The translations under genes were made by a program, and so were the position numbers. A stretch of DNA of 32,176 bases from positions 1 through 32,176 of IMG/VR virus record IMGVR_UViG_3300045541_000097. One strand, 5' to 3'. Origin of the DNA: a virus. The notes below the pieces were generated by a model, which had not been told where the DNA came from, searched no databases, and was given only the letters and a program-made list of their open reading frames with translations. Within the stretch, counting starts at the first letter, position 1. The number at the start of each line of letters is the position of its first letter. Shown piece by piece: positions 2,078 through 16,705 of the stretch.

Positions 2078-3211
2078 ATGAGCGACACCGCCCAACCCCA
2101 AGTTGCAGCCGAGGCTGCTAAGAACGTCTTCGCAGTCGGCCAGACCGTGAAGTTCACCAAATACGCCGTCCCTGTCGAAGCTGGCAAGGATGTCTTCAAA
2201 GAAGGCGACATCCTGCGCCTCGAAAAGCCCGGCTCCGACCCGAGCGCCGAAAGCTACGAAGCTGTCCGTCTCTCCGACGGCACCTCCAGCACGGTGTTCT
2301 TCGATGAAGTCGAGTCCTACACCCCTCCTGCCGAAGCGGCTCCGCCCGCCGAGAAGAAGAAGGCCAAGGCCAAGAAGACCGATGAAGAGAAGGCTGCTGA
2401 GGCCAAGGCCAAGGCCGAAGCCAAGGCCAAGAAGGACGCCGAAGCTGCTGCCAAGAAGGCCGCTGCCGAAGCCGAAGCCAACAAGCCTCTCGTCCTCACC
2501 GACTCCGTGAAGTCTCTCGTCTCCGACGACGCCGTGAAGACCATCGAAGCCGCTGAAACCCTCAGCAAGCAGATCGACACGAACGAGTTCATCCTCGGCG
2601 GCGTGCTGGCTGTCGTGCGCCGCGAGAAGGCGTATCTCAAGCTCGCTGATGGCGAGGGCAAACCCCTCTTCACCGATGACAAGGACGGCTTCGAGAACTA
2701 CATCAACACCCGCCTCTCCTGCGGCTACCGCAAGGCGATGTATCTCATCCAGATGTATGAGAAATACAGCGCCCTCGGTGTCACCGAGGAAGAGATCGCC
2801 AAGATCGGCTGGTCCAAAGCGGTTCTCATGCTCAACACCGTCACCGCCGAGAACAAGGGCGAAATGCTCGAATACGCGGCGAACCACACCAAGTCCGAGG
2901 TCGAGGCGCACGTCAAGAGCGTCCGCACCAACGCTGGCTCTCAGGGCAACACCAATCCTCGCGGTGTCCGCCACGCCTTCGCGTTCAACCTCTACAACAA
3001 CGACGGTGAGACCGCCAAGGCGATTCTGGAGCAGGCCAAGGCCCGCCTGTCGCCTGAGCAGCGCAAGGATGAGAAGGCCGCTCTCAATGCTGCCTTCCAG
3101 CTCATCCTGACCGAGTGGAGCCAGCTCGCTGCGGCTTCTCAGGCCACGGCTGCTGCTGCTCCTGCTGAGGCTGCTGCTCCTGCCGCTGCCGAAGCCCCTG
3201 CCGCTGCCTAA
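2078..3211 (+). CDS. Abundant Ala/Lys-rich protein with helix-turn-helix-like core
   Basis: A 377-residue protein not matched to a named family. Residues about 1-75 form a small beta-rich domain, about 85-145 are an Ala/Lys/Glu-rich helical linker reminiscent of histone H1-like tails, about 165-245 form a helical domain (FENYINTRLSCGYRKAMYL region) like a DNA-binding core, and the tail is almost pure Ala/Pro/Glu. Codons end nearly always in C or G (GCC, AAG, CTC, ATC), unlike the neighbours, which with the TATAAT promoter and the terminator directly downstream suggests an abundant monocistronic product. A nucleoid or regulatory protein is a plausible but unproven role. The long reverse-strand frame here is a by-product of the codon bias. 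Confidence 0.8.
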   Translation: MSDTAQPQVAAEAAKNVFAVGQTVKFTKYAVPVEAGKDVFKEGDILRLEKPGSDPSAESYEAVRLSDGTSSTVFFDEVESYTPPAEAAPPAEKKKAKAKKTDEEKAAEAKAKAEAKAKKDAEAAAKKAAAEAEANKPLVLTDSVKSLVSDDAVKTIEAAETLSKQIDTNEFILGGVLAVVRREKAYLKLADGEGKPLFTDDKDGFENYINTRLSCGYRKAMYLIQMYEKYSALGVTEEEIAKIGWSKAVLMLNTVTAENKGEMLEYAANHTKSEVEAHVKSVRTNAGSQGNTNPRGVRHAFAFNLYNNDGETAKAILEQAKARLSPEQRKDEKAALNAAFQLILTEWSQLAAASQATAAAAPAEAAAPAAAEAPAAA

Positions 3212-3238
3212 TCGGTAAGCAGGTCGGTATAACAATCA

Positions 3239-3271
3239 GCCGGGAAGGGCGACAATCCTTCCCGGCTTTTT
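3239..3271 (+). terminator. Intrinsic terminator after the 2078 gene
   Basis: A 10-bp perfect stem, GCCGGGAAGG (3239-3248) with CCTTCCCGGC (3257-3266), an 8-nt loop and five T residues. Confidence 0.9.
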
Positions 3272-3306
3272 GTTGCCCAAATTGTTAAAGTTTTCTATAA
3301 AAATAC

Positions 3307-3334
3307 TTGAACTTTATTCCTGCGAGGTTATATT
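3307..3334 (+). promoter_or_regulatory. Promoter for the 3361 gene cluster
   Basis: TTGAAC (3307-3312), a 16-bp spacer and TATATT (3329-3334), directly after a terminator, as expected for a new transcription unit. The leader before ATG 3361 is about 20 nt and A/C-rich without a Shine-Dalgarno site. Confidence 0.5.
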
Positions 3335-3360
3335 CTTTAAGCATCCAACAAACCGCTCTT

Positions 3361-3708
3361 ATGGCTAACGAAAAACCCGCTGCCGCTTTTATCGGCAAAT
3401 ACCTATTCTTCTACACCCCTCTGTTCCCGAAGGTGCCTCAGTTCATTAGCTTGGTTCCTGCGAAGGTGACATCGGCAAAGGCTGATCGGCAAATGTTCTT
3501 GGAGCCTGCTATCGCCGGGACCACTCTGGAAAAGGGATTCACTCGGGTTGGCGATCATATTGCCAAAGTGTGCGATAACCTTGCACAGTGCGAAGCATTC
3601 CTCTCAAAGCTCAATCAATACCAAACGCAGCTTTCTGCGATGAACACAGAACTCATGGCTGACCCCGCACCGTCGCAAGTTCGTGTGAGGACAGTTGTCA
3701 CCCCTTAA
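3361..3708 (+). CDS. Hypothetical protein
   Basis: A 115-residue protein beginning MANEKPAAAF. It has an aromatic, Pro-rich N-terminal third (YLFFYTPLFPKVPQF) and a helical C-terminal half (about 65-100) that could form a coiled coil. I do not recognise the family. The start at 3361 is favoured over an in-frame TTG upstream because the predicted promoter -10 lies between them. It is the first gene of a unit continuing into the holin-like genes, separated from the next gene only by an exact palindrome. Confidence 0.6.
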   Translation: MANEKPAAAFIGKYLFFYTPLFPKVPQFISLVPAKVTSAKADRQMFLEPAIAGTTLEKGFTRVGDHIAKVCDNLAQCEAFLSKLNQYQTQLSAMNTELMADPAPSQVRVRTVVTP

Positions 3709-3709
3709 C

Positions 3710-3725
3710 TTGCAACCGGTTGCAA
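3710..3725. repeat. 16-bp palindrome, exact copy (fills gene junction)
   Basis: Starts 1 nt after the stop of the 3361 gene and ends 2 nt before ATG 3728, so it makes up nearly the whole intergenic gap and replaces any ribosome-binding site. Confidence 0.95.
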
Positions 3726-3727
3726 AC

Positions 3728-4312
3728 ATGGAAGACACATCGACAATCAAAAGAGTGCAGGGTCGCCTTGGCGTCAAAGATGACGGCGTTCCCGGCAAGG
3801 AAACATTCACCGCTCTATCCCTTGCGGTAGGCGTCGAACCCGGCAAATACACCCGCGAGGAACTTGTCCTTGCTATCCAGCAAAAGGCTGGACTCGAAGT
3901 GAATGGCATCGCTGATGCTATCTTCTGGAACGAACTCCTGAACTTCCTTGACCGTAAGGATGCTGAGGGGATCGACGACGCTGGCGAGTTTTACACGCTG
4001 GAAATCCCGAAAGCACGCGGCACGATTGCAGACAGCGCCCCGCTTATGAAGCTGGCCGTTATGCTTTGCGGTCCTTTGCTGGCAAAGCTGCGCGGTGGAT
4101 TGAAATCCAAAGGAACTTTCACCACAGGCATGACCAGTCTTGTTGGGGGCGTTGCCCTCCTCTGGAAAGGTCTCATGTTTGATGACGCCGAAATGAGCAC
4201 CACAATGGTCATCGGCGGCGTCACTGCCATCATTCAAGGCATTGGCCTTATGATGGCACGCGATACAAATGTCTCGGACGAACAGGCCGGGGCCAAGAAA
4301 CTGAAACTCTAA
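3728..4312 (+). CDS. Peptidoglycan-binding domain fused to holin-like membrane segments
   Basis: A 194-residue protein. Residues about 6-60 match the PG_binding_1 pattern (VQGRLGVKDDGVPGKETFTAL), normally found on endolysins. Residues about 110-130, 138-160 and 167-187 are hydrophobic, the last two separated by a short acidic turn (FDDAEMS), giving a membrane hairpin ending MMARDTNVSDEQAG, a tail I associate with small phage holin-like proteins. The likely role is in lysis: forming or gating the membrane lesion while binding cell wall. No muramidase or amidase domain is present. The next gene also looks like a lysis accessory. Confidence 0.6.
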   Translation: MEDTSTIKRVQGRLGVKDDGVPGKETFTALSLAVGVEPGKYTREELVLAIQQKAGLEVNGIADAIFWNELLNFLDRKDAEGIDDAGEFYTLEIPKARGTIADSAPLMKLAVMLCGPLLAKLRGGLKSKGTFTTGMTSLVGGVALLWKGLMFDDAEMSTTMVIGGVTAIIQGIGLMMARDTNVSDEQAGAKKLKL

Positions 4313-4324
4313 CCACACAAACAC

Positions 4325-4654
4325 ATGTTCAAGAAGTTCCTTAGCTTCCTCGGAAGCATCATTCGTCGGCCCGAAGCTCGGGCTATCCTCTCGTCTTGGG
4401 AGCGCGTGTTCAACGAACAGCGTTCTCAACTCCTCATCGAAATGGCTGTCAAGGCCAAGCCGATGATTACCGCCCTCATCGCTGACAAGCAGAAGTCCGG
4501 CTCTGAAAAACGTGCCGTGGTTGTCGATGAACTCACAAAAATCTTCTCGACCCATACTGCCGCCCTGAAAGCTGGCATCACGGAAGCCACCCTGAAAGAC
4601 ATTGCTCTGCTGGCCACCCAGCAACAGTATGTCGTTCTGAAACTCGACAAGTGA
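4325..4654 (+). CDS. Small holin-associated-like protein
   Basis: A 109-residue, mostly helical protein starting MFKKFLSFLGSIIRRP, an amphipathic membrane-associating helix. The remainder (EKRAVVVDELTKIF, then ITEATLKDIALLATQQQ) has the spacing of the Phage_holin_LLH type family, where a helix is followed by two short amphipathic helices. There is no strong transmembrane segment beyond the N-terminus, so it could equally be a peripheral partner of the upstream membrane protein. The leader AACCACACAAACAC is A/C-rich with no Shine-Dalgarno site. Confidence 0.5.
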   Translation: MFKKFLSFLGSIIRRPEARAILSSWERVFNEQRSQLLIEMAVKAKPMITALIADKQKSGSEKRAVVVDELTKIFSTHTAALKAGITEATLKDIALLATQQQYVVLKLDK

Positions 4655-4657
4655 TTC

Positions 4658-4673
4658 TTGCAACCGGTTGCAA
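4658..4673. repeat. 16-bp palindrome, exact copy (fills gene junction)
   Basis: Begins 3 nt after the previous stop and ends 1 nt before ATG 4675. Confidence 0.95.
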
Positions 4674-4674
4674 T

Positions 4675-5502
4675 ATGACTGATACTGTCAAAACTTTCCC
4701 AAAAATCGTTGGCCTCAAGGTCGTAAGGAAACGATTGACCGATCTCCTATTTCACCCGGAGAACCCGCGCATTCACCCACCAAAAGGGACTCCTGAGTGG
4801 AATACACTTCGGGAGTCCCTTCTTGATGATTACTTCGATCCTATCATCTGGAATCGACGCAACGGTATGCTCGTTGGTGGGCATTACCGAGTTAAAATCT
4901 TCCAAGACGAAGGCGTTCAGGAAGTCGATGTCGTCGAAGTTGATTACGACAACGAAACGCACCTTGCTCGTTTGTTTGCTGCGAACAAGGCTCTTGGTAT
5001 TGATGACCAAGATAAGCGAAGAGAGCTTTTCCTTCGTTTGCATGAGATACCTGACTTCAAGGTATCTCTGACAGGTTTCACTACCGAAGAGTTTAATCGA
5101 GTCTGCCTTAATGATGGAGTCAATACTGACGAACTCACTGGACGAGACACCGATGACGAAAAAACTCCAAGGGACTCCACGAAGCTGAACGCCGTGCTTG
5201 CTACTTGCGTCGTTGGCAACATTACTGTCAAAGAGGGGGAGAAGTGGGTTCTCGGCAGACACATCCTATTCTGCGGACCCCTTACTACCACCCGATTCGA
5301 GGACGAGCTTGCAACTCAGCGAGCCAACAATGAGCCGACTGGAATGACGGTTCTTTTCATTCCATGTCCTGATCCTTACATGGCTCTGACTAACCGCGAG
5401 GATGTCATCCTTGTTATGCTTCAACCTGACGAATTCGTCGCATCGCACATCGTCAGCAATTTCGCAATCACCCACCCTGACGAACAGTGCCAGAAACTAT
5501 AA
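4675..5502 (+). CDS. ParB/Srx-like domain protein with eroded DNA methylase tail
   Basis: A 275-residue protein. Residues about 15-105 form a ParB N-terminal-like domain (HPENPRIHPP, then MLVGGHYRVKIFQDEG). About residues 175-200 contain the linker VKEGEKWVLGRHILFCGP, which in ParB-methylase fusions immediately precedes the catalytic TDPPY motif of an adenine or cytosine methyltransferase. Here the expected position reads PCPDPYMAL and no SAM-binding FxGxG segment follows; the protein ends about 75 residues later. It therefore looks like a fusion whose methylase half is truncated or degenerated, perhaps made redundant by the base-modification genes downstream. It overlaps the next start by 16 nt. 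Confidence 0.65.
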   Translation: MTDTVKTFPKIVGLKVVRKRLTDLLFHPENPRIHPPKGTPEWNTLRESLLDDYFDPIIWNRRNGMLVGGHYRVKIFQDEGVQEVDVVEVDYDNETHLARLFAANKALGIDDQDKRRELFLRLHEIPDFKVSLTGFTTEEFNRVCLNDGVNTDELTGRDTDDEKTPRDSTKLNAVLATCVVGNITVKEGEKWVLGRHILFCGPLTTTRFEDELATQRANNEPTGMTVLFIPCPDPYMALTNREDVILVMLQPDEFVASHIVSNFAITHPDEQCQKL

Positions 5503-6380
5503 AGAAAACAGGGGGCGGAGCATTCGACCCCGAGCTACAAGGGCTTCACTTCTTTGCTACTGGTCTCCAGTGGCATCTTCGCGTTTCTGGTGCTGGACAC
5601 AAGAGTTACCTTGTTGCAGTGAACCACATCAGCGAGGGGAAGAAAGGAAACGATGAAATTGAACTCCTGCTCACTATCCCTGATGTTCGCGTGTTTCTTG
5701 ACTCTGGCATCTTTACGCTTTGCGCTGACTACGCTCGAAAGAACGGTCTCCAGCTAGAAGAGGTTTTCGGATACCAACCTGAACAAGTCGATGGCTACGA
5801 AAAGCTCAAGAGCAGATACATTGACCTGATTCGCAGATACGGTGATCGCTTGTGGGGGTATGTCGAGCTTGACATGGGAGGGACGGAAACAAAGATTCGT
5901 GTTCGGTCAGAGCTTGAAGCCATTGGCATCCGTCCTATTCCTGTGTTCCATCCGATGCACGATTCATGGGATTACTATGAAATGCTGCTCAGGCAGTATG
6001 ACCGAATCTGCATCGGTAACATTGTCAATGCGTCACCGAAGACACGATCTCTTGTTCTGACTGAGTGCGCTCGCAGAAAGAGGGCTATCAACTCTAACTG
6101 CTTCATTCATATTCTTGGTTCGTCTGCCAACGGACTAATCACTTCGCTCCAATTTGAGTCTTGCGACTCATCTTCTTGGAATAGCAGACTCCGCTTTCCG
6201 GTGCTGAATAATGTTCACCTTGATGGAAACATCGGTGGGCTTCCTTCGTGGTTCTTGTATGAACAGAACGGCGATCCCGGCGTCATTACCAAGGCAGGTC
6301 TTTCCTGCGCGTATCAACATCATCTGTTTAATCTAGGCAGGGGTGCTTACCTTGCTGAGCTAATCGACCACTCACTATAA
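5487..6380 (+). CDS. dpdA: DpdA/TGT-like DNA guanine transglycosylase
   Basis: A 297-residue protein with the signature of the tRNA-guanine transglycosylase superfamily branch found in phages: VRVFLDSGIFTL (about residues 69-80), YVELDMGG (about 129-136), IGIRPIPVFHP, RICIGNIV and a final IHILGSSANG...FESCDSSSW. DpdA swaps guanine in DNA for a 7-deazaguanine such as preQ0 or its derivative. All precursor genes (folE, queD, queE, queC) follow, which strengthens the call. The start used is GTG 5487, overlapping the upstream gene; an internal start is possible because the N-terminal 20 residues look unstructured. The family assignment is from motifs, and the exact base inserted is inferred from the GAT-QueC next door. 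Confidence 0.75.
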   Translation: MPETIKKTGGGAFDPELQGLHFFATGLQWHLRVSGAGHKSYLVAVNHISEGKKGNDEIELLLTIPDVRVFLDSGIFTLCADYARKNGLQLEEVFGYQPEQVDGYEKLKSRYIDLIRRYGDRLWGYVELDMGGTETKIRVRSELEAIGIRPIPVFHPMHDSWDYYEMLLRQYDRICIGNIVNASPKTRSLVLTECARRKRAINSNCFIHILGSSANGLITSLQFESCDSSSWNSRLRFPVLNNVHLDGNIGGLPSWFLYEQNGDPGVITKAGLSCAYQHHLFNLGRGAYLAELIDHSL

Positions 6381-6382
6381 TC

Positions 6383-7654
6383 ATGTGCGCTATCTTTGGA
6401 GCTATCGGTTCTGACAAAAAGATTCCTCTTAATCGAGTCGAATCTCTGGCGGATGCTGCTTCCAGCCGAGGGAGAGACGGAACCCGGTATCAAAAATTTC
6501 AACTCAGAAACGGAAGAGTTGCCTACCTTGGTAATGCAAGGGCAGCACCAACTACTGAACTCGCTCAAGGCCCATTGCAGCCGTATAACGGGGTTGTCCA
6601 CAACGGGACAATCAGCAATGACAAGGAGCTTGGTGCCGAGGCGGGGGAAATTGATAGCATGGTCTTGTCCCGAGTGCTGGACACGATGACGTTCCCGAGA
6701 TTCATCGAGAGCTTGAAAAAGGTCAAGGGTTCCTATGCTTTGGCCTGTGCCAGTGAAAGCACGGTGTATCTAGCGAGGAACTACAAGCCTCTCTATTATG
6801 TCGAAGTGGACAACGTGGTATGGTTTGCATCTATGCCATACATGCTTGAGCAGGTTCTTCTTCTTGGTCTGAGCGGCATCGCTCCTGTGGAAGTCCCTCC
6901 GTATTCTGCTGTCGATCTCAGGTCGTTTCTCACTCTCCCTGTCGATAGCCGACCAGACAACGAGAACAAGGTCATGGTGATTGCATCCGCTGGACTTGAT
7001 TCTACGGCAGTCGCAGCTCACTACGCAGCTCAAGGAAAGGAAGTCACCTTGCTGCACTTCAAATACGGGTGCGTGGCTCAGACCCGTGAAACTGAGTGTA
7101 TCCAGAAGATCGCTCATGCCATTGAGACAAAGTTTGCAACCAGTTGCAAAGTTCGCTTCATGTCCCTCCCGTATGAACAGATCAAATCATCTTCCCCGAT
7201 TTTGGGCGAGGGTGGCACGATTGCGGGGGGCGTAGAAGGCGCAGAATTTGCGTTTGAGTGGGTGCCAGCAAGGAACTTGCTGATGGTAGCGGCAGCAGTG
7301 GCAACGGCTGAGGCGGAAGGCTACGGCATTGTGTCACTTGGGCTTAACATCGAAGAGAGTGGTGCCTACCCTGACAATGAAGAAGCATTCACCCAAGGTC
7401 TGAATGGGATCATGGCCTATGCTGTCTCTACTCAGGCAAAGGTGCGAATCGAGTGTCCGTTTGATCGTTTCACGAAACGGGAGATCGTTAAGCACGGTCT
7501 GGAGATCGGTGCCCCATTCGAGCACACTTGGTCATGCTATCGCGGCGGGGAAATTGCCTGCGGAGAATGCGGGCCTGATTTTATGCGGCAAATGGCGTTT
7601 CATCGCAACGGAGTGAAAGACCCAATCCCATATAAAAAGCCGTTGACCTTCTAG
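6383..7654 (+). CDS. gat-queC: GAT-QueC: class II amidotransferase fused to 7-cyano-7-deazaguanine synthase
   Basis: A 423-residue fusion. Residues 1 to about 190 are a class II glutamine amidotransferase starting MCAIFGAIG, with Cys2 as the N-terminal nucleophile and VVHNGTISN further on. Residues about 195-410 are QueC, with the PP-loop SAGLDS (202-207) and a zinc site Cys385, Cys393, Cys396. GAT-QueC makes archaeosine (G+) from preQ0 in Crenarchaeota and is linked to deoxyarchaeosine in phage 9g DNA, so a similar product is expected here. The fourth zinc Cys is Asp399. The last 29 residues appear to have been replaced by an invading HNH element (see 7568-8270); the displaced original tail keeps the Cys. 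A palindrome variant lies at codons 251-256. Confidence 0.85.
   Translation: MCAIFGAIGSDKKIPLNRVESLADAASSRGRDGTRYQKFQLRNGRVAYLGNARAAPTTELAQGPLQPYNGVVHNGTISNDKELGAEAGEIDSMVLSRVLDTMTFPRFIESLKKVKGSYALACASESTVYLARNYKPLYYVEVDNVVWFASMPYMLEQVLLLGLSGIAPVEVPPYSAVDLRSFLTLPVDSRPDNENKVMVIASAGLDSTAVAAHYAAQGKEVTLLHFKYGCVAQTRETECIQKIAHAIETKFATSCKVRFMSLPYEQIKSSSPILGEGGTIAGGVEGAEFAFEWVPARNLLMVAAAVATAEAEGYGIVSLGLNIEESGAYPDNEEAFTQGLNGIMAYAVSTQAKVRIECPFDRFTKREIVKHGLEIGAPFEHTWSCYRGGEIACGECGPDFMRQMAFHRNGVKDPIPYKKPLTF
7134..7149. repeat. 16-bp palindrome variant, CCAG centre (intragenic)
   Basis: TTGCAACCAGTTGCAA inside gat-queC, read as FATSCK. One substitution from the consensus, in the central CCGG. Confidence 0.8.
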
Positions 7655-7671
7655 TGTGCTCCGTGTAAGGT
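7643..7671 (+). promoter_or_regulatory. Promoter for the HNH gene, near-leaderless
   Basis: TTGACC (7643-7648), a 17-bp spacer and TAAGGT (7666-7671), overlapping the queC stop. Only TGACG separates the -10 from ATG 7677, so transcription would start at or near the A of the start codon. Confidence 0.5.
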
Positions 7672-7676
7672 TGACG

Positions 7677-8267
7677 ATGCCATTCCCAAAAGACCCAATC
7701 AAAGCAGACGCCTATCGTAAGTTACTAAGTGATCGCATGAAGCGATTGATGGCTGAACGCAAAGGCAAGACCTACAAAGAAATCTATGGAGATCGAGCGG
7801 ATGCAGAATCTTCTAAGAGAATAGAAGCCAATAAAGAAACTTGGAAAGTTTTAGGTCAAAGTCCAGAGCATGTCGAAAGAGGACGACAAGCTGCTTTAGC
7901 TCAAAACAGAAAAGGAAAGACTTACGAAGAAATCTACGGAGAAGGAGCAAAAGAACAAAAAAGAATCAGGCAAGAAACTCACAGATCAAAAATTTATCCA
8001 GAGCGTGAAGGCACTAGAGAAAAACATAATTCAGATTTCAGATACGCCGATTGGAGGACAGCCGTATTTGAACGCGATAATTACACTTGTCAGATTCGTT
8101 CGTGCGGTATTCGCGGTGGTTCTTTACATGCTCATCATATTAAAGAGTGGGCAGTATTTCCTCTGTTCAGGTATGAGGTATGGAATGGCATCACCCTATG
8201 CAAAGAATGCCATAAAAAAGTTCACAGCGGAACAGAACAATTACCCCATGAAGCAAATCTATTCTAA
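7677..8267 (+). CDS. HNH homing endonuclease with NUMOD-like repeats
   Basis: A 196-residue protein. The C-terminal part has the full HNH pattern: WRTAVFERDNYTCQ, HAHHIKEW and ITLCKECHKKVH, with Cys pairs binding zinc. The N-terminal part contains two copies of a module, GKTYKEIYG (about 26-34) and GKTYEEIYG (about 80-88), each followed by a basic helix, resembling the DNA-binding modules of phage homing enzymes. Codons are more A/T-rich than in the flanking que genes. It splits queC from the next gene and has its own promoter, so it is an independent mobile gene and not part of base modification. The start at 7677 is set by the promoter and by good codon usage from there on. Confidence 0.85.
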   Translation: MPFPKDPIKADAYRKLLSDRMKRLMAERKGKTYKEIYGDRADAESSKRIEANKETWKVLGQSPEHVERGRQAALAQNRKGKTYEEIYGEGAKEQKRIRQETHRSKIYPEREGTREKHNSDFRYADWRTAVFERDNYTCQIRSCGIRGGSLHAHHIKEWAVFPLFRYEVWNGITLCKECHKKVHSGTEQLPHEANLF

Positions 8268-8270
8268 TTC

Positions 8271-8339
8271 TGCGGACCTTGTTACATGCGGAAAACTGCA
8301 TTCGACAGAAACGGAGCCAAAGACCCTGTGATGCCATGA
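8271..8339 (+). pseudogene. Displaced original 3' end of queC
   Basis: Read from TGC 8271, this frame gives CGPCYMRKTAF followed by a tail matching the end of the intact queC and stops at TGA 8337-8339. It keeps the fourth zinc-binding Cys (CGPC) that the intact queC copy lacks (CGPD). Its stop overlaps the ATG at 8336, the ATGA coupling used throughout this genome, which shows it was once the real end of queC in the operon. It starts 3 nt after the HNH stop and has no start of its own. Confidence 0.75.
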
Positions 8340-8557
8340 GCAAACCAAGCGATATTCAAGTGGGTGGAGACCACTACAAGAAATTCAAAATCCAGCCATA
8401 CGAATTCATTACTCTCAACGGCATTGGTTTCCTTGAGGGTTGTGTCATTAAGCGTATGTGCCGACACGGCAGCAAGAATGGACTCGAAGACTTGCTAAAA
8501 GCCAAACACGAAATTGATCTTCTCATCCAAACAAAATACCCCGATCAAGCAACATGA
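8336..8557 (+). CDS. DUF3310 (SaV-like) protein
   Basis: A 73-residue protein matching DUF3310 throughout: GGDHYKKFKIQPYEFI, FLEGCVIKRMCRHGSKNG and LEDLLKAKHEIDLLI. Small proteins of this family are common in tailed phages near nucleotide metabolism genes; their biochemical role is not settled. The ATG overlaps the stop of the displaced queC tail, and its own stop overlaps queD by ATGA, so it was originally embedded in the que operon. Confidence 0.8.
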   Translation: MSKPSDIQVGGDHYKKFKIQPYEFITLNGIGFLEGCVIKRMCRHGSKNGLEDLLKAKHEIDLLIQTKYPDQAT

Positions 8558-9006
8558 AAACCTGCTCAAAGACCTACCCCGACTTTCCCTTTGCCCACCG
8601 CCAGCATAAGCACAGCGGACACTGCCGATTCATCCACGGCCACAACTGGACATTCACTTTTGAGTTCGCATGTGACCGCGACAACGGACAAGGATTCGTA
8701 ATCGACTTTGGTCGGTTGAAGTGGCTCAAGGCATGGCTCGAAAAGCACTTCGACCACACCTGCGTTCTCAATCACGATGACCCGCTTGTCGGTCAGTTTC
8801 ATAGCGTCGGCGGGGATGACGCATGGGACATTACTGTCGTTCCTGACGCATCCTGCGAAGGTATTGCTCAGTTCGTGTTCGAGCAGGTCAATGCCCTCCT
8901 CGCCAGCGATCAGGTGCTCGAAGGTGAAGACGTTGGACGGGGCATCCGTGTTGTTTCGCTTGTCGTCTATGAAGACAGCAAAAACTCCGCCAAATACTCA
9001 GAGTGA
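8554..9006 (+). CDS. queD: 6-carboxy-tetrahydropterin synthase QueD
   Basis: A 150-residue protein of the PTPS/QueD family. The zinc histidines are in FAHRQ and HGHNW, the catalytic Cys is in SGHCRFIHGH, and FDHTCVLN and SCEGIAQFVFEQ are the later conserved blocks. QueD turns dihydroneopterin triphosphate, made by FolE, into 6-carboxy-5,6,7,8-tetrahydropterin, the substrate of QueE. It is coupled to the upstream DUF3310 gene by ATGA. The length fits the family. Confidence 0.9.
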   Translation: MKTCSKTYPDFPFAHRQHKHSGHCRFIHGHNWTFTFEFACDRDNGQGFVIDFGRLKWLKAWLEKHFDHTCVLNHDDPLVGQFHSVGGDDAWDITVVPDASCEGIAQFVFEQVNALLASDQVLEGEDVGRGIRVVSLVVYEDSKNSAKYSE

Positions 9007-9113
9007 TCCTCTGGCCTATGCAAAAACTCAATTAGAGGCTTGCCTAGGAACTAAAGTTGAAGTATATTCTCTACCAACCCCGGAAGGGGAGCTACCCCTT
9101 GATTTCACAATTT
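9007..9113 (+). other. Spacer between queD and queE with protein-like frame
   Basis: This 107-bp gap is unusual among otherwise overlapping genes. The +1 frame relative to queD stays open across it and reads like protein (DPLAYAKTQLEACLG, then VEVYSLPTPEGELPL) into queE, but it has no ATG, GTG or TTG start of its own. It may be a gene remnant or a queD extension lost by frameshift. Confidence 0.35.
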
Positions 9114-9833
9114 ATGAAGACGTATCCAGTCAACGAAATGTTCTACACATGGCAGGGTGAAGGTATTCACGCTGGCCGTGCTGCATTTTTTGTTCGTCTG
9201 CATGGATGCCCCATCAAGTGCCCTTGGTGTGACTCTGCCGGGACTTGGCATCCTAAATACGTCCCATCAAACGTGACGAGGATGACTGCCGCAGAGATCG
9301 GCAAAGCAGCCAGAGAGACGGATGCTCAATTTGTGGTGGTGACTGGCGGTGAGCCTACAATTCACGATCTCCGTGACTTGACTGCCTGCTTGTCCGAGAG
9401 TCAGGACGAATCGCACGCTTCAAGGATTCTTCCATGTCATCTCGAAACGAGCGGAGCCTTTGAGATCAAGGGCGATTTCTCTTTCATTACGGTGTCGCCT
9501 AAGCGGGAGCGCCTGCCCCTTGACGAGAATCTGGAAAAGGCGAGTGAGATCAAGCTCATCATTGACAGTCCAGAAGCGTTCACTGAATGGGACGCATACC
9601 TCGACAATCACTATTTCAAAAAGGCCAAGCAGTTCTGTTCTGTTTGGCTGCACCCTGAGTGGTCAAAGCGGGCTGACAAGGAAGTCCTTACCACTATCAG
9701 CAACGCGGTGAAGCGTTACCCGGCTCTGTATCGAGCGGGCTGGCAGCTTCACAAACTGTATCAAGTGGACAGCTTGGACGCACGCTCCCGTCCTATTGTT
9801 CCACTTGGCGGCGACATCAACAAAGGATATTGA
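9114..9833 (+). CDS. queE: 7-carboxy-7-deazaguanine synthase QueE (radical SAM)
   Basis: A 239-residue radical SAM enzyme. The iron-sulfur motif GCPIKCPWC places Cys at 32, 36 and 39 when counted from ATG 9114; FYTWQGEG precedes it as in all QueE proteins, and VVVTGGEPT follows at about 77-85. It converts 6-carboxytetrahydropterin to 7-carboxy-7-deazaguanine for QueC. ATG 9114 is preferred to an in-frame upstream start because the conserved sequence begins at MKTYPVNEMFYTWQ. Confidence 0.9.
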   Translation: MKTYPVNEMFYTWQGEGIHAGRAAFFVRLHGCPIKCPWCDSAGTWHPKYVPSNVTRMTAAEIGKAARETDAQFVVVTGGEPTIHDLRDLTACLSESQDESHASRILPCHLETSGAFEIKGDFSFITVSPKRERLPLDENLEKASEIKLIIDSPEAFTEWDAYLDNHYFKKAKQFCSVWLHPEWSKRADKEVLTTISNAVKRYPALYRAGWQLHKLYQVDSLDARSRPIVPLGGDINKGY

Positions 9834-9837
9834 CCAC

Positions 9838-10446
9838 ATGAGCAGAGACCTAAACAACCTCCCAACAAAGCAAATCGAAGAAGTGCTCGCATTCCTTGGC
9901 GAAAAGCCTAGGGCGGGTATGGCTGACACTCCAAAGCGTTTTCTCAAAGCCTTGCTCGAAATGACGGCAGGCTATGACGAAGACCCAGCCGAGCATCTCC
10001 GCAAAGAGTTTCAACTCAGTGACTCGGAGGATAACACGGTCAAGCCATACGACCAGATCATCCTATCCGGTGGAATTGACTTTGTGAGTATGTGCGAACA
10101 TCACATGCTCCCATTCGAGGGGATTATCCACATTGGTTATCTCCCGAATGCTGAATCTTCCGACTCCAAGGTTGTCGGTCTCTCGAAGTTTGCTCGCATG
10201 GCCGAAGGGTTTGCTCGACGGTTTCAAGTGCAAGAGCGACTGACACAACAAATCGCAGACACTATTCAGGAAGTTGTTCGGCCTGCTGGCGTTGGCGTTG
10301 TCGTAAAAGCTCGACACACATGCCAGTGCTATCGCGGCGTCAAGAAGAGGGGGTGGATGATTACATCCTCGATGACCGGACTGTTCCGTGAAGAAGCTCA
10401 GACCAGAATGGAGTTCTTGAAACTCATCGAAATCGGAGACAAATGA
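9838..10446 (+). CDS. folE: GTP cyclohydrolase I FolE
   Basis: A 202-residue protein with the family's zinc and catalytic signatures: SMCEHHMLPFEG, KFARMAEGFARRFQVQERLT and KARHTCQCYRGV. It makes 7,8-dihydroneopterin triphosphate from GTP, the first step toward preQ0. With QueD, QueE, GAT-QueC and the DpdA-like protein it completes a self-sufficient route from GTP to a modified DNA base. The stop overlaps the terminase small subunit start by ATGA, linking base modification and packaging genes in one operon. Confidence 0.93.
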   Translation: MSRDLNNLPTKQIEEVLAFLGEKPRAGMADTPKRFLKALLEMTAGYDEDPAEHLRKEFQLSDSEDNTVKPYDQIILSGGIDFVSMCEHHMLPFEGIIHIGYLPNAESSDSKVVGLSKFARMAEGFARRFQVQERLTQQIADTIQEVVRPAGVGVVVKARHTCQCYRGVKKRGWMITSSMTGLFREEAQTRMEFLKLIEIGDK

Positions 10447-11072
10447 CCGAGACACCCACAGTTCAACCTCGCCGCCGCGTGCGGACAGAGCGCCTTGAGG
10501 TAACAGTGAATCCAGAAGAACAAAAACTGGATCACGTTGCGGAGCGTATTCGTCTGCAAAAGGAGACGTTCGTGCGCGAACTGAAAAGCCGCCTAGGTCT
10601 GATGATGATGACATGCGAGGCCATGAACATCTCCTATGAGACTGTTCGTGGTTGGGCAAAGTCTGATCCTGATTTCCTTGCTCAAATCAGTGGCGTGCAG
10701 GAATACACTCTTGACGTAGTTGAGCAGAGATTCCTGAAAAAGATTGTCGATGAGGGGGACACCACGGCGATGATCTTCTATCTCAAGACAAAGGGCAAGG
10801 GTCGCGGATTCTCTACCCGAGTCGAACTCACTGGTGCTAACGGTGGACCAATCGAGTCTGAGAGCACGATTAAGGTGTCTGAGATTCAGAAGGAGCTTCC
10901 TGCCGATGTGCTGGATGCTATCATCCTAAGCTCGACCGCGAACATTGTGCAACCGGTTGCAAATCCGCACCTGACCCAGCCTGTCTTGGAGGCTGTCGTG
11001 AAGGAGTCCAGCCCGAACGGGTATGAAATGGAAGACGAATTCGATGACGAAGAAGAAGAAGAAATCGAATGA
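10443..11072 (+). CDS. terS: Terminase small subunit
   Basis: A 209-residue protein. A helix-turn-helix lies at about 50-80 (MTCEAMNISYETVRGWAKSDPDF), followed by GDTTAMIFYLKTKGKGRGF, a block typical of phage TerS proteins, and a very acidic C-terminus (EDEFDDEEEEEIE). TerS recognises the packaging site and stimulates the large subunit encoded immediately downstream, with which it overlaps by ATGA. A near-exact palindrome copy sits at codons 169-174 (VQPVAN), in a region likely to be a disordered linker. Confidence 0.85.
   Translation: MTETPTVQPRRRVRTERLEVTVNPEEQKLDHVAERIRLQKETFVRELKSRLGLMMMTCEAMNISYETVRGWAKSDPDFLAQISGVQEYTLDVVEQRFLKKIVDEGDTTAMIFYLKTKGKGRGFSTRVELTGANGGPIESESTIKVSEIQKELPADVLDAIILSSTANIVQPVANPHLTQPVLEAVVKESSPNGYEMEDEFDDEEEEEIE
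10947..10962. repeat. 16-bp palindrome, 15/16 match (intragenic)
   Basis: GTGCAACCGGTTGCAA inside terS, read in frame as VQPVAN; only the first base differs. Confidence 0.85.
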
Positions 11073-12610
11073 ATGAAGTAGCCTACAAGGATAAGCTGAT
11101 CCATGCGATCCAGCAAGCAAGGCAGAACCTATTTGCGTTCTGTCTCTTGATTTATCCGCCTGTGACCACAGCGTTCATTTGGAGCAAGCTGCACATCTTC
11201 CTGATGAACAGGGTGCAGTCTGTTTACGAAGGCAAGTCCAAGAAAAAGCAGACTGTCTCGGTTCCTCCTCAGCACGGTAAATCGCAGGTGCTATCTAAGA
11301 TCGCAGTGGCTTGGATGCTCGGAGCTAGGCCGGGGATTACCATTGCGATTACTGGCTTCTCTCACACCCTTGTAACGAAGTTCTCGAAGGAGGTTAAGAG
11401 CATCGTATCGTCGAAGATGTATCAAATGATCTTCCCGAATACGACTCAGGTGTATGGTTCCGACAAAGCAGAGGAATGGGAACTCACAAACGGAAGCTGC
11501 CTGATTGCTAAGTCCGCTGGATCAAAGCTCACTGGACGCCGCGTTGATTGGCTCATTATTGACGACCCTCATGCTGGTCGTGAAGAAGCCGAATCGGTGA
11601 CGATGCGTAAGAAGGTTCAGCAATGGTATTTCGCTGACTGCGTAACTCGTCTATCCCCCGGTGCAGCGGTATTCATCATTGCTACTCGTTGGCACCCCGA
11701 GGATTTGATCGGGTATCTTACTGGCGACGAATACATCGAAGAAATCAAAGCCAGCGGGGTCACTAACATCGAGGATGAAATCTTCGAGGTCACAAACATT
11801 CCCGCTATCTGCGAAGACGAGAACACTGACCCACTAGGCAGAAAGATCGGAGAAGCTGCATTCCCCGAAGTCCGTAACATCGAGTTCTTGGAGGGCATCA
11901 AAGCTACCATCCCGTCGTATGAGTGGCGGTCGCAGTATCAGGGACAGCCTAGGTCTTCGGGTTCGGGGCAGGCTGACATTGACAAGATCAGGTATTGCGA
12001 TTACAAGGATGTTCCGAATCCCGGTCAAGCGATTTGGGTTCGAGGGTGGGACTTGGCTTTGTCAGAGGATCAAGCAGGTGACTTTACCGCTGGCCCTCTT
12101 ATCGCATTCGACAAAGAGCAGAGAGTCCTTTACCTTGTGGAAATGTTCCGAAAACGGCAGGCATGGGTAAAGCTCAAGGACACTATGATCGGGACCGTTG
12201 AAATGGACATCACACGCGGAGTCCACGGAGAAGGTATCGAAGCTGTTGCTGGTTTCGGGGCTGTCTATTCTGAAATCAAGCAGCATTTCCTTGGTCGAAT
12301 GAAAGTCGTTAAAAGGAACCCGAAGCGGTGCGGTAAACTCTTGCGTGCTACTTGGTGGTTCAACTTGATTGAGAAAGGCAACTTTGTCATGGTGAGAGCA
12401 CCTTGGAACAAGGATTTCATCGACGAGCTATCTACCTTCCCTGATGGCAACAATGATGACCAGATTGACGGCGTATCTGTTGCAACGGAAGTGATTCCGA
12501 AAAAATACCGTATGACAAAGCGCAAGAAGGAGGAAGTTCAGGGGGATGGCACTCGACGACCAACTACAAGCGCCAGACCAAAGAGCAGGACTCGTGTCAT
12601 GGCATTTTAA
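11069..12610 (+). CDS. terL: Terminase large subunit
   Basis: A 513-residue packaging motor. Walker A is PPQHGKS (66-72), Walker B is WLIIDDPHA (161-169), and the coupling motif region is IIATRWHPED. The C-terminal RNase H-like nuclease shows VRGWDLALSEDQAGD (first Asp) and FPDGNNDDQIDGVSVA (last Asp). It drives DNA into the procapsid and cuts the concatemer. Its start overlaps terS by ATGA. Instead of portal and head genes, an RNA gene region follows, so the structural genes must lie elsewhere. Confidence 0.95.
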   Translation: MNEVAYKDKLIHAIQQARQNLFAFCLLIYPPVTTAFIWSKLHIFLMNRVQSVYEGKSKKKQTVSVPPQHGKSQVLSKIAVAWMLGARPGITIAITGFSHTLVTKFSKEVKSIVSSKMYQMIFPNTTQVYGSDKAEEWELTNGSCLIAKSAGSKLTGRRVDWLIIDDPHAGREEAESVTMRKKVQQWYFADCVTRLSPGAAVFIIATRWHPEDLIGYLTGDEYIEEIKASGVTNIEDEIFEVTNIPAICEDENTDPLGRKIGEAAFPEVRNIEFLEGIKATIPSYEWRSQYQGQPRSSGSGQADIDKIRYCDYKDVPNPGQAIWVRGWDLALSEDQAGDFTAGPLIAFDKEQRVLYLVEMFRKRQAWVKLKDTMIGTVEMDITRGVHGEGIEAVAGFGAVYSEIKQHFLGRMKVVKRNPKRCGKLLRATWWFNLIEKGNFVMVRAPWNKDFIDELSTFPDGNNDDQIDGVSVATEVIPKKYRMTKRKKEEVQGDGTRRPTTSARPKSRTRVMAF

Positions 12611-12923: not shown

Positions 12924-12999
12924 TGCGGGATGGAGCAGATGGTAGCTCGGCTGGCTCATAACCAGTAGGTCGTTGGTTCGAGTCCAACTCCCGCAACCA
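12924..12999 (+). tRNA. Initiator-type tRNA-Met (CAT), CCA encoded
   Basis: A 76-nt cloverleaf: acceptor TGCGGGA/TCCCGCA, D stem GAGC/GCTC, anticodon arm GCTGG-CTCATAA-CCAGT, T arm GTTGG-TTCGAGT-CCAAC, discriminator A, CCA encoded. TGGAGC after the acceptor, giving the A11:U24 pair, and overall similarity to bacterial fMet tRNA mark it as initiator-type. Two hallmarks are weakened: position 1:72 is a T:A pair, not a mismatch, and the anticodon stem has only two of the three consecutive G:C pairs. Confidence 0.85.
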
Positions 13000-16267: not shown

Positions 16268-16705
16268 ATGATACACTATACCAAAGGAGACGCGACGTTA
16301 CACAGCCCTAACACGATTGTTGCTCACATCTGCAACAATGTCCGAGTTTGGGGTGGTGGGTTTGTTATTGCCATCACCCGAGCACTTGGACCGAAGGCCG
16401 AGCACACTTACCGGAAGCGTGCTGACTCAATCATTCTCGGAACTTTGCAACTGGTTGCAATTCAGTCTGACTTCCGTGTCGCTAACATGGTGGCGCAAAA
16501 GGGGGTGACTGATCGAGGGGATAAGATCGACTATGATGCACTTCGTCGCTGCTTGAAGAAGCTCAAGAATGCAGCTCTCAAGCACAATTCCAAGATTCAC
16601 ATGCCTCGTATCGGCTGCGGTTTGGCTGGTTCATCTTGGGACAAGATCGAACCCCTCCTGCAAGAGATCGCAGGTGAAGTTGAAATTTACGTCCACGACT
16701 TTTAA
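16268..16705 (+). CDS. Macro-domain protein, TARG1/DarG-like ADP-ribosyl hydrolase
   Basis: A 145-residue stand-alone macro domain: YTKGDATLH at the start, VAHICNNVRVWGGGFVIAI (the ADP-ribose-binding loop, about 19-37) and HMPRIGCGLAGSSWDKIEPLL (about 112-132). This arrangement is that of the TARG1/ALC1-like branch, which includes DarG, the antitoxin that removes ADP-ribose from DNA thymidines. A phage copy could undo DarT-type or other ADP-ribosylating defence, or recycle ADP-ribose phosphate. The specific role is inference. A palindrome variant is embedded at codons 60-65. Confidence 0.8.
   Translation: MIHYTKGDATLHSPNTIVAHICNNVRVWGGGFVIAITRALGPKAEHTYRKRADSIILGTLQLVAIQSDFRVANMVAQKGVTDRGDKIDYDALRRCLKKLKNAALKHNSKIHMPRIGCGLAGSSWDKIEPLLQEIAGEVEIYVHDF
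16445..16460. repeat. 16-bp palindrome variant, CTGG centre (intragenic)
   Basis: TTGCAACTGGTTGCAA inside the macro-domain gene, read as LQLVAI. Confidence 0.8.

Follow-up and report, generated by a model that had tools for sequence, protein, structure and literature searches.

The window analysed here is the whole 32,176-nucleotide IMG/VR virus record IMGVR_UViG_3300045541_000097 (positions 1 to 32,176), an uncultured virus record without end repeats and possibly a fragment. In this DNA, the genes for FolE, QueD, QueE, GAT-QueC (a glutamine amidotransferase domain, GAT, fused to QueC) and a divergent DpdA form one tightly packed operon that runs into the genes for the terminase small (TerS) and large (TerL) subunits, and the operon probably makes 2′-deoxyarchaeosine (dG+) in the phage DNA. 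The five pathway genes were identified by profile searches (Pfam, phrog and NCBI models) far above chance. An earlier reading made from the letters of the window (hereafter the sequence-only reading) had placed DpdA-like, GAT-QueC, QueD, QueE and FolE genes in a single pre-terminase operon, and we recovered all of them at or near the positions it proposed. A DUF3310 gene, which it does not mention, also lies within the operon.

5487..6380, + strand: DpdA (DNA-guanine transglycosylase), divergent, of the ParB-linked group (phrog_887, 2.4e-17)
6383..7654, + strand: GAT-QueC (glutamine amidotransferase domain + QueC, preQ0 synthase) (Pfam QueC, 5e-44; GATase_7, 1.5e-9)
8336..8557, + strand: DUF3310 protein (Pfam DUF3310, 3.8e-7)
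8554..9006, + strand: QueD (6-carboxytetrahydropterin synthase) (PTPS, 1.8e-24; phrog_2389, 3.4e-32)
9114..9833, + strand: QueE (radical SAM 7-carboxy-7-deazaguanine synthase) (phrog_2076, 1.7e-30; TIGR04322, 2.7e-27)
9838..10446, + strand: FolE (GTP cyclohydrolase I) (Pfam GTP_cyclohydroI, 3.5e-57; NF006825, above cut-off)
10443..11072, + strand: TerS, terminase small subunit (phrog_309, 8e-10)
11069..12610, + strand: TerL, terminase large subunit (phrog_38, 2e-77)

Stop and start codons overlap as ATGA at the DUF3310/QueD, FolE/TerS and TerS/TerL junctions. QueD retains the C-x3-H-x-H motif and QueE the C-x3-C-x2-C motif. QueE likely starts at ATG 9114 in preference to TTG 9057, and ATG 9838 is the likely start of FolE.

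On the proposed route, FolE, QueD and QueE would convert GTP to 7-carboxy-7-deazaguanine, which the QueC half of GAT-QueC would turn into preQ0. DpdA, a transglycosylase of the TGT fold, would then exchange some guanines of the phage DNA for preQ0 (or G+). The ParB-like protein of the abutting gene, which would bind DNA, probably assists in this step. The GAT half would supply ammonia for the conversion of preQ0 to G+, before or after insertion, and the modified base, which in other phages shields the DNA against host enzymes, would in turn block host restriction enzymes. For this phage we infer the product, the role of the ParB-like protein and the protection.

We predict dG+ as the product because the operon carries GAT-QueC instead of QueC, as do phages 9g and Vid5. 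The base was measured in phage 9g, whose dpdA and gat-queC genes put dG+ into Escherichia coli plasmid DNA (PMC6884629), and it accounts for 7.55% of G in Vid5 (PMC8306585). With dG+ measured in these two phages that combine GAT-QueC and DpdA, with each gene supported individually and with the TGT fold found as described below, the complete route from GTP to a deoxyarchaeosine-type base put forward by the sequence-only reading is upheld. The operon also fits phage dG+ group 1 of Hutinet 2019: a DpdA/DpdA2 homologue is present together with FolE, QueD, QueE and QueC, and GAT-QueC provides the amidotransferase of that group (ArcS, QueF-L or GAT fused to QueC). It is an ordinary kind of phage DNA modification system, in an unusual build.

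The DpdA and its fold

Identity between the window DpdA, which the sequence-only reading had called unusual, and known phage DpdAs reaches about 30% at best. A single-sequence scan of IMG/VR with this protein returned no matches because it is too divergent, and a query built from an alignment did work. In a 50-member DpdA alignment, D72, G74, Y111, D129, P152, G177, H208, D227 and S228 are invariant. Among solved proteins, the profile of the 50 relatives had a single significant match, 7ui4 (1.1e-8), which is a DNA-guanine transglycosylase and to whose DCGAF, VHLLG and SIDST stretches the DSGxF, VHGFG and SVDSS stretches of DpdA align.

The AlphaFold2 model of the window DpdA (pTM 0.75) is confident to about residue 230, and the significant Foldseek matches to it were mostly TGTs. 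VIA-align of the model ranked 7ui4, the DNA preQ0 insertase DpdA, first with a Z of 14.6 over 198 residues, a score tied with those of archaeal, bacterial and mammalian TGTs (the archaeosine TGT 1j2b also has Z 14.6). Structure prediction of 5487-6380 against TGT/DpdA, the check that the sequence-only reading had suggested, therefore recovered the TGT fold, and the mismatch that would have spoken against the assignment did not appear. A conserved histidine separates DpdA from DpdA2, which lacks it (PMC6884629). This defining histidine appears, from the alignment, to be retained as H208. Consistent with DpdA and not DpdA2, the protein combines the TGT fold with active-site residues D72, D129 and D227 that, like H208, are unchanged across the relatives.

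The preQ0 made by such an operon could instead feed queuosine in host tRNA, as a metabolic gene set and not as a DNA modification system; 48 phages that have preQ0 genes without DpdA might work in this way (PMC6884629). For the window we consider this very improbable, because a DpdA and a ParB-like neighbour lie within the operon, and because 7ui4, a DNA enzyme, is the top solved match (though its Z is tied with the tRNA enzymes) and the sole sequence-profile match. Moreover, Pfam and NCBI model searches showed no QueA, QueG or QueF in the operon.

GAT-QueC and the HNH insertion

GAT-QueC has full-length matches in phages 9g, MiCath and PaMx25; it aligns with the 9g protein over 99% of its length at 36% identity and is 39% identical to that of MiCath. 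The GAT domain is of the class II glutamine amidotransferase type, and the Cys2 nucleophile, RGRD, HNGT and the GAT-QueC domain order are retained. The C-terminal end of the gene is altered, and three features describe it:

7577..7579, + strand: Asp399 codon, at the fourth zinc cysteine position (CGECGPD in the window, CGxCGPC in the family)
7656..8267, + strand: HNH endonuclease (Pfam HNH, 4e-6; phrog_119, 2.7e-14; alternative start ATG 7677)
8271..8339, + strand: relic of the former GAT-QueC 3′ terminus, now displaced, reading CGPCYMRKTAFDRNGAKDPVMP and a stop (recognized by a motif scan in all six frames and by aligning it with the live 3′ end)

The live GAT-QueC ends at 7654 in a replacement tail that has Asp for the fourth zinc cysteine. 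Past the HNH stop (8267), the same frame reads FCGPCYMRKTAFDRNGAKDPVMP followed by a stop, which is the usual GAT-QueC C-terminus with CGPC. When the relic was aligned with the live 3′ end at the DNA level, the score was 49; none of 500 shuffles scored above 37. The relic is most likely the original 3′ end, since its TGA (8337-8339) overlaps the DUF3310 ATG (8336) in the manner of other gene ends in this operon. The two similar ends flanking the HNH gene thus define an inserted unit, made up of the HNH gene and the replacement tail, within the zinc-knuckle codons; it measures ~703 bp between TGCGG copies at 7568 and 8271. As expected of a homing insertion, the endonuclease gene interrupts a conserved coding site and the host gene can still be recognized on either side of it; by this position the HNH gene is judged to be of the homing type. 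The endonuclease insertion noted in the sequence-only reading is therefore real, and can be placed within the former 3′ end of GAT-QueC.

Such an arrangement could have arisen by homing into the conserved knuckle, with the tail co-converted from the donor. The live tail is most similar to that of the Asp-type contig L090 (69%), with the Cys-type L101 and L107 tails scoring nearly as high, whereas the body of GAT-QueC is nearer to the Cys-type L091 and L101 (52%) than to L090 (48%). In these comparisons, the contrast between tail and body fits co-conversion from a donor weakly.

We also considered that the HNH gene might reside in a self-splicing intron, with the two GAT-QueC ends as exons joined in RNA to restore CGPC. 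In favour of this, the downstream relic shares the reading frame of the HNH gene and has the conserved Cys. However, the upstream frame stays open across the junction and yields a full, homologous QueC tail closed by a stop codon of its own. An intron would not encode such a tail, and the two tails are homologous copies. Since the upstream copy lacks no part of the QueC tail, we rejected this explanation, which we find barely credible, in favour of an insertion that brought its own tail.

Asp399 occupies the position aligned to the fourth cysteine of Bacillus QueC 3bl5. Among relatives, this fourth zinc position is Cys in 77 and Asp in 3, and when the viral collection was scanned for CGPDFMR, the Asp variant turned up in just four other GAT-QueC genes. 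All four are full-length and lie in phage contigs, by which the Asp type looks viable as judged from its occurrence. The His before the second Cys is missing in all Asp cases, compared with 4 of 107 Cys cases (motif table, with near-copies counted). A constant tie between the Asp-for-Cys change and an HNH gene was not borne out, since only L133/L174 of the four others has an HNH gene behind it. In the GAT-QueC proteins of L107, L108 and L135, the His preceding the second zinc Cys is gone and the fourth Cys remains (AC or PC contexts); these proteins are possible intermediates toward the Asp variant. In L109, a stand-alone second QueC-like protein (3761-4576), recognized by eye, is encoded upstream of an Asp-type GAT-QueC gene.

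Several points weigh against the dG+ operon proposed here. The identity of the final 7-deazaguanine is not readable from sequence. The window DpdA is very divergent (best identity on the DpdA tree 27%, on a long branch), and its last 60 residues have low confidence in the model, with residues 240-297 modelled poorly. It has no match to the NCBI equivalog NF041059 (DpdA of bacterial Dpd islands; cut-off 200 bits), a cut-off that the DpdA of phage 9g likewise fails to reach, at 13.9 bits. The ParB-like protein has no match to the NCBI DpdB model NF041060. In GAT-QueC, the four-Cys zinc site CGxCGPC, a usual although not formally defining feature of the family, has Asp as its fourth residue, and the PP-loop (ATP loop) reads SAGLDS, with SAG in place of SGG. 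The SAG loop is common among the nearest relatives. Given both the Asp and the SAG loop, the activity of GAT-QueC is not assured.

The operon might thus be active and end in dPreQ0, dADG or dCDG, with the altered GAT-QueC (Asp399 tail, SAG loop) partly or wholly idle. Phages whose gene sets are related (Dp-1, nt-1) contain dPreQ0, dADG or dPreQ1 in place of the predicted base (PMC6884629). Furthermore, Asp at the fourth zinc position is confined to a small minority, and the relic shows that the gene had Cys before the insertion. On the other hand, Asp can ligate zinc, the catalytic residues of the GAT domain are intact, the other Asp genes are full-length and phage-borne, and the neighbouring His is missing in every Asp case, which gives the change the look of a coherent variant. 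Taken together, another end product is improbable in our judgement, and we retain dG+ as the predicted base.

The ParB-like protein and its pairing with DpdA

Directly before dpdA lies the gene for the ParB-like protein, in which we recognize two features:

4675..5502, + strand: ParB-like protein, 275 aa, ending in a methyltransferase stub (phrog_620 ParB-like, 1.2e-19)
5233..5331, + strand: methyltransferase-start vestige (linker GEKWVLGRHILFCGPLT, compared with GDIWTLGRHRLICGDST of a true ParB-methyltransferase)

We assembled 151 DpdA loci (113 clusters at 90% identity) from IMG/VR scans and fetched phage records, a survey sampled around DpdA and QueC from which near-copies were removed only in part. 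A locus was called ParB-linked when DpdA had a ParB-like open reading frame (ORF) on its own strand no more than 150 bp away. Such an ORF adjoins DpdA in 39 of the 113 clusters, before it in 28 and after it in 11, and 41 of the 54 ParB-like ORFs found sit at most 130 bp from DpdA. DpdA is located between ParB and QueC in all but one of the ParB-linked clusters that have QueC (32/33), and the ParB-DpdA pairing survives reversal of the block order. The stop and start codons of ParB and DpdA overlap in many loci; in the window, the 3′ end of the ParB-like gene (ATG 4675) overlaps dpdA by 16 bases. In L088, three consecutive ParB-like ORFs (2585-4713) stand immediately before DpdA.

On a tree of 85 DpdAs, 7 changes account for the ParB label; shuffled labels need 28, and none of 500 shuffles came as low. 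The ParB-free part of this tree holds the DpdAs of 9g and PaMx25, and a mostly ParB-linked part those of Rosebushvirus, StAugustine, Finch and the window; the tree came from a quick search, many of its forks are weakly supported and the position of the window, on its long branch, is uncertain. Some loci labelled as having no ParB inside the ParB-linked part (L089, L091) nevertheless have one just beyond the distance limit. We also asked whether ParB-linked DpdAs differ merely in being shorter; the lengths overlap and give no clean separation.

The window protein itself is a ParB-like protein that has lost its methylase. Its match to phrog_498, the phage ParB-methyltransferase fusions (1.5e-22), is confined to profile positions 35-224 of 633 and covers the ParB domain plus the first methylase residues. 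Against a true phage ParB-methyltransferase, it shows 35% identity to residues 3-190 of the latter, after which the similarity stops. A search of the window for the rest of the methylase found no trace, and the DPPY motif is absent from the ParB-like protein. Because the methylase similarity ends at residue 190 and the window holds no remainder, the gene does not encode the intact ParB/methylase fusion that the sequence-only reading had claimed: what is left is a stub, and the catalytic domain present in the known fusions is gone. The start of dpdA falls where the methylase domain would be. The GGHYR motif, which would correspond to the nucleotide-binding box of ParB/Srx, is retained. Among the loci seen, the methylase stub is unique to the window, and we therefore discarded it as a general trait of DpdA-linked ParB proteins.

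In bacteria, DpdB has been described as a ParB-like ATPase acting with DpdA (PMC12839542), and ORF1 of phage CRB2 has been suggested as a possible dpdB homologue (PMC6392294). As NF041060 was not matched, we do not claim DpdB membership for the window protein and propose a like role instead: its recurrent position beside DpdA and the clustering of the label on the DpdA tree make it a candidate DpdB-like partner. Tentatively, this may be taken further. There could be two types of phage DpdA, one ParB-free and acting alone, as in 9g, and one ParB-dependent, in Rosebush, StAugustine, the window and many uncultured phages. In the latter, ParB would be an obligate, nucleotide-driven DNA-loading partner and the phage counterpart of DpdB; the window ParB would descend from a ParB-methyltransferase in which DpdA took the place of the methylase.

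Alternatively, the ParB-like gene may merely be adjacent, serving partition or replication or being a methylase remnant unrelated to modification. The missing DpdB model match and the derivation of the window protein from a ParB-methyltransferase are in line with this, and the DpdA of 9g inserts preQ0 in E. coli without an added partner (PMC6884629). Chance adjacency would, however, have to account for abutment that recurs on either side of DpdA, for the concentration of ParB-like ORFs close to it, for the clustered label on the tree and for the overlapping stops and starts in many loci. We regard it as unlikely, and a DpdB-like partner remains our candidate.

Related systems and other features of the window

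The layout ParB-DpdA-QueC-QueD-QueE-FolE-terminase is already known from Rosebush mycobacteriophages, which carry dPreQ0 (28% of G in Rosebush DNA; PMC6884629). Rosebushvirus (subcluster B2; gene order read from another phage of the species Rosebushvirus rosebush) has the same gene order as the window at the head of its structural genes, and on the tree its DpdA and that of the window both belong to the large ParB-linked part. It has plain QueC and dPreQ0, whereas the window differs in its GAT-QueC, its DUF3310 gene, the HNH insertion and the methylase stub at the end of its ParB. Mycobacterium phage StAugustine has ParB, DpdA, GAT-QueC, QueD, QueE, FolE and terminase in the same order, but a DnaQ-like gene separates ParB from DpdA and there is no HNH gene. 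Rhodococcus phage Finch shows the same gene order without terminase, and contig L106 the same layout with GAT-QueC. The FolE in the ParB-DpdA-GAT-QueC cassette of L106 (7245-8138) bears an N-terminal extension of ~110 residues that looks phosphoribosyltransferase-like by eye.

Enterobacteria phage 9g (Nonagvirus) and Pantoea phage Vid5 share with the window the full-length GAT-QueC architecture as well as DpdA, FolE, QueD and QueE. They differ in gene order (QueE-GAT-QueC-QueD-FolE-DpdA-clamp-polymerase) and in having no ParB-like neighbour, and the 9g DpdA stands elsewhere on the tree. The bacterial Dpd system (DpdA + DpdB) likewise places a TGT-fold DNA preQ0 insertase (7ui4) beside a ParB-superfamily protein; unlike it, the window lacks matches to the NCBI DpdA and DpdB models, and its operon contains neither DpdC nor restriction genes.

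Elsewhere in the window, a tRNA-Met(cat) gene (12924-12999) lies directly 3′ of the terminase region, and the ORF at 16268-16705, starting MIHYTKGDATLHSPNTIVAHICNN, has the look of a macro-domain (ADP-ribose binding) protein when judged by eye. A palindrome, TTGCAACCGGTTGCAA (12-mer core GCAACCGGTTGC), occurs in 14 exact and 8 near copies between 478 and 31897 (for example at 3712, 4660, 13209, 20472 and 31897); with at most 2 mismatches allowed, the window holds 22 copies where 1.4 are expected. It often stands just 5′ of a start codon and sometimes lies in-frame within genes as LQPVA or QPVA. We rejected GCAACCGGTTGC, which stands ahead of the operon, as a control site of the operon, as it is spread over the whole window and is present in unrelated phages. 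Contigs L178 and L192 from another metagenome, without protein similarity to the window, hold 4 copies each of the 16-mer palindrome in 12-13 kb. The listed sites in bacterial genomes are mostly from Rhodobacteraceae, one or two per stretch. The palindrome resembles a LacI-family operator, and its distribution hints at an alphaproteobacterial host.

With its Rosebush-like gene order and GAT-QueC, the window joins the Rosebush layout to a final enzyme of the 9g type. The relic beside the HNH gene offers a clear case of an endonuclease entering the zinc-knuckle codons of a pathway gene that keeps a complete, altered tail. The systematic pairing of ParB with DpdA makes a suggestion given one sentence in the literature (CRB2, PMC6392294) testable, and bears on how DpdA reaches DNA. 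Collectively, our results would extend the deoxyarchaeosine pathway to a phage of the Rosebush layout and suggest that layout and final base are chosen independently.

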